Source of the DNA: Actinomycetota bacterium | GTDB lineage: Bacteria; Actinomycetota; Actinomycetes; Nanopelagicales; Nanopelagicaceae | NCBI GenBank assembly: GCA_010030895.1 | Contig: RHBS01000003.1 | Span: 1-47,008, forward strand | DNA: 47,008 nt | Direction: 5' to 3' | Part shown: one piece after another, positions 11,552 through 35,294 of the stretch | How the letters are laid out: every line of letters starts with the position of its first letter | Numbering within the stretch: position 1 is the first letter of the stretch | Translations under genes and position numbers: made by a program | Notes under the pieces: model-generated | What the model was told of the DNA's origin: nothing | Databases searched by the model: none | What the model saw: the letters and a program-made list of their open reading frames with translations, nothing else

Positions 11552-11590
11552 TTTAAAAACCAAACTGTTAACTAGAAAGGGTTAACAAAA

Positions 11591-11630
11591 AAGCCGGGAT
11601 TGGTAACTTACCAATCCCGGCTTTACATTT
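11591..11630. terminator. Strong bidirectional terminator between whiB7 and the DUF5679 gene
   Basis: Perfect 16 bp inverted repeat: AAGCCGGGATTGGTAA (11591-11606) and its complement (11608-11623). The plus strand continues TTTACATTTTGG. On the minus strand the stem is followed by TTTTTTGTTAAC. It separates two convergent genes and can serve both. Confidence 0.9.
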
Positions 11631-11961: not shown

Positions 11962-12591
11962 CTAGATATTTATCGCCGACATCACGCCAGATCCACCAAA
12001 TTGGCAACCAATCTCAAATCCCTCTAAAAATGCCTCGGCTCTAGCTTGATCCTCATACCGATTTAAATAGTATTTAAATTGATCATCATGGCCTGGCACC
12101 TGAAGGTGAATTAATTCATGAAAAATAATGTAATTCAAAACAAATGCTGGTGCGCCAATTAATCGGTCAGAGATTCTGATACTCCGATCAACAGTGGTGC
12201 ATGAGCCCCACCGTTCATTCATTGCGCGCCAATTTATGCTGGCTGGAGTAGTAGAAAAATCTGGAAGATACTTTTTCAGTAGAGTCAGCCCAATATCTAA
12301 CAATTGCTGATCACTTTTTCGCTCTTTAGCCTCTCGCCGCAAAACCATAGCGATCATCTCGGGGATAGCCTCTAACTCCTGACGTTTACTCATCTTGGCT
12401 GGAATGTGAATCTCAATCACCCCAGCATTTCGATAAGCGCTCATACTGCGTCGCCGTCTCTGGTTTCTCACTACCTTAAACTCAGGCAGCCCTGTAGGCA
12501 GCGCAGCTTCATATCGTTTTCTTCGCTTTGATATTTGAGCAACAGGTGGCAGCAGATCAGTAAAGAGAGTTTGTTGCTCAAAGTTATCCAC
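11962..12591 (-). CDS. YgjP-like zinc metallopeptidase (M48-related, DUF45)
   Basis: A 209 aa protein. The start is GTG at 12591, with AGAGGT four nt upstream on the minus strand. The conserved core contains MNERWGSCTTVDRSIRISDR, then the zinc-binding HELIH and a downstream H in GHDDQFKYYLNRY, the pattern of the YgjP/DUF45 group of gluzincins. There is no signal peptide or membrane segment, and the N-terminal 70 residues are basic (ISKRRKRYE, NQRRRRSM), which could aid nucleic acid binding. Homologues are often annotated as SprT/YgjP-like with unknown substrate. It sits next to a 320 bp control region containing DnaA-box-like sequences; the first of these boxes lies over its first codons. Confidence 0.85.
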   Translation of the reverse strand: MDNFEQQTLFTDLLPPVAQISKRRKRYEAALPTGLPEFKVVRNQRRRRSMSAYRNAGVIEIHIPAKMSKRQELEAIPEMIAMVLRREAKERKSDQQLLDIGLTLLKKYLPDFSTTPASINWRAMNERWGSCTTVDRSIRISDRLIGAPAFVLNYIIFHELIHLQVPGHDDQFKYYLNRYEDQARAEAFLEGFEIGCQFGGSGVMSAINI

Positions 12592-12645
12592 TATTACCTC
12601 TTTTTATCCACCATAATTAGCCATATCTCCACAGGTTAATCCACA
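12584..12645 (+). other. Cluster of four DnaA-box-like 9-mers
   Basis: Same-orientation sequences close to TTATCCACA occur at 12584 (TTATCCACT), 12604 (TTATCCACC), 12625 (ATCTCCACA) and 12637 (TAATCCACA), each one to three changes from consensus. An inverted repeat GAGCCG/CGGCTC (12646-12668) and an AT-rich stretch (about 12710-12775, with TCAAAA-AATA-TTTTGA at 12745-12760) follow. No dnaA or dnaN is nearby, so this is not an obvious oriC. It could bind DnaA for titration or gene control, or be chance. Confidence 0.4.
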
Positions 12646-12789: not shown

Positions 12790-12818
12790 TTGATTCTCAT
12801 CATTTATTAACCTAAGTT
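12790..12818 (+). promoter_or_regulatory. Predicted sigma-70-type promoter for a small RNA
   Basis: TTGATT (12790-12795), a 17 bp spacer, then TAAGTT (12813-12818). A start point 7 nt on, near 12825, coincides with the first base of a long hairpin that ends in a U-tract. No protein gene follows on this strand before 14331. Confidence 0.5.
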
Positions 12819-12824
12819 AGCGCT

Positions 12825-12903
12825 ACGAAGTCCCCGGATAACCGTTTCATATCTGCAAGGGGAAGGCAGATAGGAAATGTGCGGCCGGGGACTTCGCTTT
12901 TTT
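12825..12903 (+). ncRNA. Candidate structured small RNA ending in an intrinsic terminator
   Basis: The outer stem CGAAGTCCCCGG (12826-12837) pairs perfectly with CCGGGGACTTCG (12885-12896) and is followed by CTTTTTT. Inside, CCG/CGG, TTTC/GAAA and ATCTGC/GCAGAT (12851-12856 with 12866-12871) extend the rod to a 9 nt purine loop AAGGGGAAG. Transcription is predicted to begin at about 12825, so almost the whole transcript folds. Flanking protein genes are on the other strand, and on that strand no T-run follows the stem, so it is not simply their terminator. I do not recognise a known RNA family: it lacks SRP, 6S and tmRNA hallmarks. The loop resembles a Shine-Dalgarno and could pair with pyrimidine-rich targets. 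Confidence 0.55.
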
Positions 12904-12913
12904 ATCTTAAGAT

Positions 12914-14227
12914 TTAGAGCAGACCAGAAAGATCATCAGGGACAGTAACGCTATCTAAAAATGCTTTTGCATCAGCTAAATCTTTTGGCATTGGCAAAAA
13001 TGCTGGATCTTCCCAGCACTTATCCCGGCCATCTGCACCCCGTAAATTTTTTACCTCACTCCAAAAGGCGGAGGCCTCTCTCATTTTTCTTGGCGACACC
13101 TCTAATCCCAACAAGCTTGCAAATAATTGTTGCATTGGAGAGCTAGTAGCTCGCCGACGTCGTGAGTTTTCAATTAAAGCGCTAAAACTTGGAATGCGAT
13201 CACCTGCAACTTGAGAAACTACATGATCAATCCAACCTTCAATTAAAGCTAGAGTCATCTCTAATTTAGTTAATGCTAACTCTTGAGCTGGAGTTTGTTG
13301 TGGGGTAAATAATCCTGAGTTTAAAGCGATATTTATCGCTTGCGGATTGTTGATATCAATTTGACCAGCAGAGATTGCCTCTTCGGCTTGGCGAGTAATG
13401 GAATCAACATCAATCGTAATTCCCTTACCATAAGTGGTTATTGCATCACGAAGGTAGGTGTGTAACCAGGTATTTTTTGCAAATAATCGGCTTGCTGCCA
13501 CCTCGCGAAGTGCTAAATATAAATTAACCTCAGACTTTTCTATTCCCAGGCCATCTGACCACTCTAAGATATTTTGTGGAATTAAATGTGGGCCACTATC
13601 TGGCTTTAACAACGGGATTGCCACATCATTAGCACTAGTTATTGAGTTGGCGAGTAATCCAATTCCCTGCCCTAATTGATTTGCAATCAAAGTTCCCATA
13701 AAACTTCTTAGCAACTTAGCCACCATCTGTTTCATCGCCTCTTGCTGCTCTGGAGACTGATCTAGCTGGCCGGCTAGTTCAATCGGAAGGGCGGTGGCGG
13801 GGTTAGAAACCACCTGGGCGAGTGCATCAGCCATTCCAGTTGCAAGTGGCTCAATTAGTGATTGCCAGCCCGCTAATGATTCATCCAACCAGGTGCCTTT
13901 TGACCAGGCGCTATCTGAGGGCAGAGTAGATGCCGGAAATAAAATTTCAGTATCAAGCCAGGTGTTGGCAATCGCAATTGATTGAGATAGCTGATCTTGA
14001 TCGCTAACTCCTATTGGTAGGTCACTTTTTGTAGCAATTATCTTCTTTGCGATTTGTCGTAGCATCGACTGATTAATTAAATTTTGATTAGGGGTGGAAG
14101 AGTGCATATTCTCAATAAATGATTTAGCTCCAGCTAAAGTTTGAGAATCAATTCCCATCTCTGAGAATTGTTTTAGCAGCGCCTCAAAGTCAGGTTGACC
14201 ATCACCTGGCAAAAAACCAAAACTCAT
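12914..14227 (-). CDS. DUF2342 / zincin-like protein (Rv3195-type), probable loss of the metal-binding His
   Basis: A 437 aa protein of the actinobacterial DUF2342 (Zincin_2) family, annotated elsewhere as a putative zinc-dependent metalloprotease. The ATG at 14227 follows GGGAG eight nt upstream on the minus strand. The N-terminus is Gly/Pro-rich (MSFGFLPGDGQPDF). Helical segments follow, with LGQGIGLL near 185-192 and the family core LREVAASRLF (240-249), later EGWIDHVV, SRRRRATSSP and a tail with PDDLSGLL. In relatives I remember, the core reads REAAHxRLF; here Ala-Ser replaces the His positions, so catalysis is doubtful. Its position between the YgjP-like gene and the PDZ protease matches the mycobacterial order. 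Confidence 0.75.
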   Translation of the reverse strand: MSFGFLPGDGQPDFEALLKQFSEMGIDSQTLAGAKSFIENMHSSTPNQNLINQSMLRQIAKKIIATKSDLPIGVSDQDQLSQSIAIANTWLDTEILFPASTLPSDSAWSKGTWLDESLAGWQSLIEPLATGMADALAQVVSNPATALPIELAGQLDQSPEQQEAMKQMVAKLLRSFMGTLIANQLGQGIGLLANSITSANDVAIPLLKPDSGPHLIPQNILEWSDGLGIEKSEVNLYLALREVAASRLFAKNTWLHTYLRDAITTYGKGITIDVDSITRQAEEAISAGQIDINNPQAINIALNSGLFTPQQTPAQELALTKLEMTLALIEGWIDHVVSQVAGDRIPSFSALIENSRRRRATSSPMQQLFASLLGLEVSPRKMREASAFWSEVKNLRGADGRDKCWEDPAFLPMPKDLADAKAFLDSVTVPDDLSGLL

Positions 14228-35122: not shown

Positions 35123-35130
35123 AAAGCTAC

Positions 35131-35252
35131 ATTTTCGGGGTCGGTGTAATTCCGAACCGGCAGTTAAAGTCTGCGACCCGCTTACATCCAGTTAGCGGTG
35201 GACTTGGTGAAACTCCAAGACCGACGGTTAAAGTCCGGATGAGAGAAGATGT
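35131..35252 (+). promoter_or_regulatory. FMN riboswitch (RFN element)
   Basis: All conserved RFN blocks are present in order: TTCGGGGTCGGTGTAATTCC, GAACCGGCAGTTAAAGTCTG, a variable arm GCTTACATCCAGTTAGC, then GGTGAAACTCCAAGACCGAC, GGTTAAAGTCCGGATGAGAG and AAGAT. It precedes ribD-ribE-ribBA-ribH and should sense flavin mononucleotide to repress the operon. Confidence 0.97.
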
Positions 35253-35294
35253 ATGTAAGTGGCGTGCTGTCATTGCGTCATTTTCTTTTGCGTA

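Follow-up and report, generated by a model that had tools for sequence, protein, structure and literature searches.

The window, that is, the whole stretch of 47,008 nt of actinobacterial DNA that was analysed, contains an intergenic region of ~320 nt with a predicted small RNA gene on the plus strand, flanked by two protein genes that are both read from the minus strand. In order of position, the features of the locus are:

11962 to 12591, minus strand: ygjP-like metallopeptidase gene (PF01863), divergent neighbour of the RNA gene
12584 to 12592, plus strand: DnaA-box-like site TTATCCACT, in a degenerate cluster upstream of the RNA gene
12604 to 12612, plus strand: DnaA-box-like site TTATCCACC, in the same degenerate cluster
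12625 to 12633, plus strand: DnaA-box-like site ATCTCCACA, kept across the window's genus
12637 to 12645, plus strand: DnaA-box-like site TAATCCACA, 12 bp after ATCTCCACA and likewise kept across the genus
12790 to 12795, plus strand: -35 element TTGATT of a conserved promoter, by direct reading
12813 to 12818, plus strand: -10 element TAAGTT of the same conserved promoter, 17-nt spacer after the -35 element, by direct reading
12825 to 12903, plus strand: putative small RNA gene of ~79 nt, a hairpin running from the inferred start to the T-run, predicted from fold, conservation, covariation and a comparison of G.U with A.C pairs
12826 to 12837, plus strand: 5' arm of the closing stem, CGAAGTCCCCGG, from the fold and compensatory changes
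12838 to 12842, plus strand: 5' side of the internal loop, AUAAC (GGAUAAC motif), opposite 12880-12884
12843-12848 with 12874-12879, plus strand: inner helix, from the fold
12850 to 12856, plus strand: 5' arm of the apical helix, TATCTGC, pairing with 12866-12872
12857 to 12865, plus strand: invariant 9-nt apical loop AAGGGGAAG, conserved in the alignment and in distant hits
12866 to 12872, plus strand: 3' arm of the apical helix, GCAGATA, pairing with 12850-12856
12885 to 12896, plus strand: 3' arm of the closing stem, CCGGGGACTTCG, pairing with 12826-12837 over 12 bp
12898 to 12903, plus strand: T-run TTTTTT (T6), a predicted intrinsic terminator together with the closing stem
12914 to 14227, minus strand: Zincin_2 gene (PF10103), convergent neighbour of the RNA gene in Nanopelagicaceae

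Direct reading and folding of the plus strand bore out the layout proposed in a preliminary description of this DNA, namely TTGATT-N17-TAAGTT, a start, a 12 bp stem, a 9-nt AAGGGGAAG loop and TTTTTT. The inferred start, A12825, is located ~7 nt downstream of the -10 element and one base ahead of the stem. The plus-strand fold has a predicted energy of -44 kcal/mol (z = -4.6), which was equalled by none of 200 shuffled sequences. The minus strand of the hairpin also folds, as any inverted repeat does, but it has no T-run, and the flanking genes are on that other strand; both points had been made in the preliminary description and hold. Among relatives, the T-rich tail is present in most AT-rich species and is weak or often unclear in GC-rich members, and the internal-loop motif AUAAC/GGAUAAC is retained in Nanopelagicaceae and several other families and missing in some lineages. 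Elsewhere in the window, a perfect 16-bp inverted repeat at 11590-11624, between convergent whiB-like and DUF5679 genes, has a terminator-like score on both strands and is probably an ordinary bidirectional terminator, and an FMN riboswitch (RF00050) was found at 35127-35254 on the plus strand with 108.6 bits.

By DNA search, homologues of the RNA were detected in 260 of 296 Nanopelagicaceae genomes, in 106 of the 108 near-complete ones and in all 17 genera. The RNA is mostly 80-98% identical within the family, and for genera whose RNAs share 80-90% identity the adjacent Zincin_2 protein is often only ~45% identical. A covariance model was run on 394 genomes of the class and matched 128 of them, from 53 genera. 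The RNA is found in many other families of the class and also in a few other classes of the phylum; these counts of genomes and loci are not phylogenetically independent, and the absence of the RNA from large families is to be read as absence by the models and filters used here. Three weak phylum hits with no loop (L362, L363 and L365) were left out of the counts, and three hits by pattern alone (L160, L226 and the Rhizobium locus L229), which come from outside Actinomycetota or have an unclear origin and do not show the structure, were taken as chance. The RNA was not matched in phages, plasmids or IMG/VR, the latter scanned with one strict pattern. Several of the records that carry the RNA, many of them acI-like, are titled Bifidobacterium breve, Streptomyces griseus, Streptomycetaceae, Clavibacter or Rubrivirga and are apparently mislabelled MAGs. 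Taken with the structural evidence below, the comparison of sequences lends good support to a genuine small RNA gene of ~79 nt in the window, one that is uncatalogued and kept across many actinobacteria.

In the 54-sequence family alignment 11 of the 19 consensus pairs were changed on both sides with pairing kept. In the 62-sequence cross-family alignment 95.2% of the cells were paired, a percentage favoured by the fact that the 17 pairs were picked on the same alignment, in which one row (L229) is now thought to be a chance hit. Covariation in this alignment was 0.528, as compared to 0.268 for shuffled alignments (reached in 0/500) and at most 0.163 for slid pairings, and the closing helix showed compensatory changes at 9 of 10 pairs. 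Compensatory change in relatives, suggested in the preliminary description as a check, is evidently present, as 14 of the 17 pairs had double changes. Cells with G.U were far more frequent than cells with A.C (80:16 and 75:6), and this indicates that the selected molecule is the plus-strand RNA. The same ratios bear on the idea that the locus acts as structured single-stranded DNA or as a cruciform, e.g. a loading hairpin for the primosome or DnaA, and not as RNA. A long inverted repeat that adjoins an array of DnaA boxes (see below) would fit with such a role, but an excess of G.U over A.C is expected of a plus-strand RNA and not of DNA hairpins, and a conserved promoter lies exactly at the stem base; we consider a DNA structure highly improbable.

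The promoter was analyzed across loci by its element TTGA..-17/18-TA...T, which was present just upstream of the hairpin in 169 of 199 distinct loci. Control windows taken from further upstream had it in 3 of 398 cases and shuffled sequences in 13 of 995, and its distance to the loop falls within a narrow range. From this position we infer that transcription starts at the stem base and that hairpin structure would begin almost at the 5' end of the RNA. A generic sigma-70 consensus scan of the window did not list the promoter at 12790-12818, and we hold it to be real because it is conserved in relatives and not on the basis of that scan. The proposal, made in the preliminary description, of a dedicated, promoter-driven and almost fully folded small RNA is supported.

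An opposite-strand ygjP match was found upstream at 53 of 75 distant loci, and the gene beyond the RNA differs between lineages (Zincin_2, DUF5679, ECH, Rpf and others). The variable downstream neighbour speaks against a function linked to any single gene on that side, and also against the hairpin being a mere terminator. In Nanopelagicaceae the hairpin is placed directly behind the stop codon of Zincin_2, which is on the other strand, and has a plus-strand T-run, as would be expected if it were a bidirectional terminator between convergent units with no function as RNA. There is, however, no plus-strand gene upstream to be terminated, as ygjP is read from the minus strand, and the hairpin has its own promoter directly before it; the downstream gene changes between lineages while the RNA does not, an invariant loop would be unneeded, and the hairpin is present as a single copy in its own genome. 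This explanation was already disfavoured, in agreement with the preliminary description, and we give it next to no credence. A terminator-only repeat is ruled out by the single copy and the own promoter.

The loop AAGGGGAAG was identical in 54 of 54 rows of the family alignment and exact in 40 of the 40 distant covariance-model hits inspected, which had not been selected by the loop pattern, and there it sits on otherwise re-paired stems. The loop is also kept in the other classes of the phylum that have the RNA, with its closing pair swapped from G-C to C-G. That 9 nt of loop stay invariant while the stem varies freely suggests that the loop is recognised by an unchanging partner. Possibly this partner is mRNA, if the molecule is a trans-acting antisense sRNA in which the loop pairs with short CU-rich sites, and a stem that exposes an unpaired purine loop of invariant sequence is a classical way of presenting a seed. 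The preliminary description leaned in this direction by calling the loop anti-Shine-Dalgarno-like and proposing CU-rich complementary targets. The former was not supported, since the purine loop if anything resembles the Shine-Dalgarno sequence itself, and no conserved CU-rich complement of 9-10 nt was found: the 10-nt loop complement occurred in the own genome and in some close complete relatives (G068 and G127) only as the antisense of the RNA itself, and when five genomes of the genus were compared, the RNA locus was the one place at which sites of the 9-nt complement coincided. It is therefore unlikely that the loop pairs over a long stretch with a conserved mRNA, and a protein partner is favoured. 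Seeds of 6-8 nt would escape these searches, but the loop appears to be conserved across classes more strictly than one would expect of a seed whose targets drift. Overall we find an antisense sRNA rather unlikely, and we hold with moderate confidence that the loop partner is a protein; against this, the loop may contact RNA via pairing of fewer than 9 nt or with G.U pairs.

In distant lineages we observed a clear accumulation of TCCACA sites upstream of the promoter. In 20 distant loci they were present at 15.4 per kb on the RNA strand (71 sites vs. 3 on the other strand), as compared to 0.19 per kb per strand elsewhere in the same loci, which corresponds to an ~80-fold enrichment, and 19 of these loci had at least two sites. 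The extended consensus of the sites is T(C/T)GTCCACAG, which resembles the known actinobacterial DnaA box, and similar extended sites are present at dnaA/oriC of the same genomes. Successive boxes are most often spaced by 11-12 or 22-23 bp, and the last box is located 7-8, 17-18, 28-29 or 40 bp from the -35 element in most of 71 loci. Relative to the start, the box positions follow a period of 11.0 bp (R = 0.817, n = 249), a value that carries no literal probability as the loci are related. Quantised distances are typical of activators that touch the polymerase from the same helix face. The composite pattern box-TTGAC-AAGGGGAAGG had matches in 65 of 316 genomes of the class and in 6 of 326 genomes sampled from the phylum, and its reversed control gave one class match. 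Outside Nanopelagicaceae, DnaA boxes are in other words enriched and positioned at the RNA promoter in the manner expected of a DnaA-regulated unit, and the 11-bp steps relative to the -35 element suggest direct control of the RNA by DnaA. Such control is likely in most of the lineages outside the window's family.

The copy in the window has four box-like sites at 12584-12645, a degenerate cluster ~180-240 bp upstream of the start; two of them, spaced by 12 bp, are kept as a pair across the genus, and the two others are imperfect. For many other members of Nanopelagicaceae no TCCACA was found within 300 nt upstream of the RNA. As the boxes are absent or remote in this family, DnaA control is a claim on most other lineages and uncertain for the organism of the window. 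The RNA gene, its strand, promoter, structure and loop and the phased box array are established by sequence comparison; the array itself could serve ygjP or DnaA titration instead of the RNA, which would count against the explanation we prefer. In a group of distant loci (L268-L287) a T-rich tract is found directly ahead of TCCACA, ~230 nt upstream of the loop, and may be part of either ygjP or the DnaA array. The distance between the RNA locus and dnaA is ~12-19% of genome length in complete genomes of the family (G068, G066, G127, G256, G255, G237, G128 and G036) and ~24-33% in three larger genomes (G355, G481 and G549).

It is conceivable that the locus is chiefly a DnaA-titrating or -inactivating element like datA, with the hairpin RNA as an adjacent transcript that insulates it or serves timing. 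Same-strand arrays of phased boxes resemble sites of DnaA oligomerisation, the locus lies at the above distance from dnaA in the complete family genomes, and E. coli datA adjoins a tRNA-Gly operon whose transcription regulates datA (PMC10950094). Titration, however, needs no phasing to the -35 element of the RNA, which is what the boxes display, and many Nanopelagicaceae retain the RNA and its loop although TCCACA is missing from the 300 nt ahead of it, which argues that the RNA is selected apart from the array. We regard a datA-like main function as unlikely.

Taken together, our results are best explained by an uncatalogued family of hairpin RNAs with a DnaA-controlled promoter in most of the other lineages and a protein-bound loop, a reading to which we assign a probability of about 0.6. 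A housekeeping-type promoter would give rise to a transcript of ~79 nt that forms one long hairpin, and in AT-rich species the closing stem and the T-run would end transcription. The stem would mainly serve to present the loop, which is probably the binding site of an unvarying protein. In most of the lineages beyond the window's family there are 1-6 same-strand boxes at distances of whole helical turns ahead of the -35 element, and from this geometry DnaA bound to them is predicted to contact the RNA polymerase. Such contact would activate (less likely repress) the RNA, the level of which would then vary with the state of DnaA; in loci with the array the same geometry makes DnaA most likely an activator. 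In the window's genus the RNA has been retained, and all that appears to be left of the input from DnaA is a degenerate cluster at a distance; this input may have been lost. A further-reaching version, in which the RNA is ancient over several classes, DnaA filaments in helical register activate its promoter and its level reports the state of the initiator via the invariant loop, falls in our judgement just short of an even chance. The preliminary description was correct in part: it recognised the RNA, and it missed both the promoter-phased DnaA-box array and how widely the RNA occurs in the class and phylum.

The RNA is near-universal in the abundant freshwater acI actinobacteria and also present in larger-genomed actinobacteria, and it is missing from Rfam. 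To our knowledge, control of replication initiation in Actinomycetota is poorly understood. If DnaA drives the RNA, the RNA would be a readable output of the replication initiator, and the locus may represent an ancient link between replication and RNA-based control; if the further-reaching version is true, it would be a previously undescribed kind of RNA regulator coupled to replication. The invariant loop offers a ready bait for finding the partner.

In Rfam 15 no match was obtained for 12790-12903 at the gathering threshold, and only chance-level hits appeared at E up to 10, in line with the preliminary description, which could place the RNA in no known family; in the literature, among open papers, no RNA of such description was found, and searching by the sequence yielded unrelated papers only. 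SRP RNA (RF00169) resembles the hairpin RNA in length, overall hairpin shape and single copy but differs in loop and motif, and it was rejected, as the locus has no match to the model and a separate canonical SRP RNA is present in 57 of 61 family genomes. The own assembly had no SRP RNA match, most likely because it is 87.5% complete, since relatives have SRP RNA. 6S RNA (RF00013) was rejected likewise, on the grounds of gene neighbourhood, size and shape, with no Rfam match and no large central bubble at the locus. The RNA described here shares with 6S RNA the form of a long rod that is almost completely paired and contains an internal loop, but its internal loop is small and absent in several lineages, and the invariant part is the apical loop. 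6C RNA has C-rich loops in two hairpins, and ANTAR-target RNAs have dual hairpins with short loops; both are actinobacterial RNAs recognised by conserved loops, as we propose here, and neither gave an Rfam match at this locus.

Ms1 of Mycobacterium (scr3559 of Streptomyces), whose partner protein is the RNA polymerase core, was sought in intergenic regions >300 nt beside HAD-hydrolase/oxidoreductase genes (PMC9130861). Ms1 too is a widespread, housekeeping-type small RNA of actinobacteria found by structure and synteny. It was ruled out by neighbours (here ygjP, Zincin_2, DUF5679 and ECH), size and shape, the RNA here being a single hairpin of ~79 nt with no large 6S-like bubble; as the intergenic region here is ~320 nt, it is only the gene neighbours that depart outright from the Ms1 search. 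EcpR1 of alpha-rhizobia is reported to be a stress-induced trans-sRNA that modulates cell-cycle progression (PMC4414408), and it resembles our RNA in its broad conservation and in a connection to the control of cell cycle and replication, which for our RNA is proposed. The comparison is one of description and claims no homology, and here DnaA would act on the RNA. By analogy, the nearest known arrangement is E. coli datA, where a DnaA-box cluster away from oriC is located beside a small-RNA transcription unit (PMC10950094). In that case the RNA is tRNA-Gly, the boxes are not accompanied by a conserved RNA family or phased promoter, and datA works differently; at the locus described here the boxes are, outside the window's family, in step with the promoter of the RNA.
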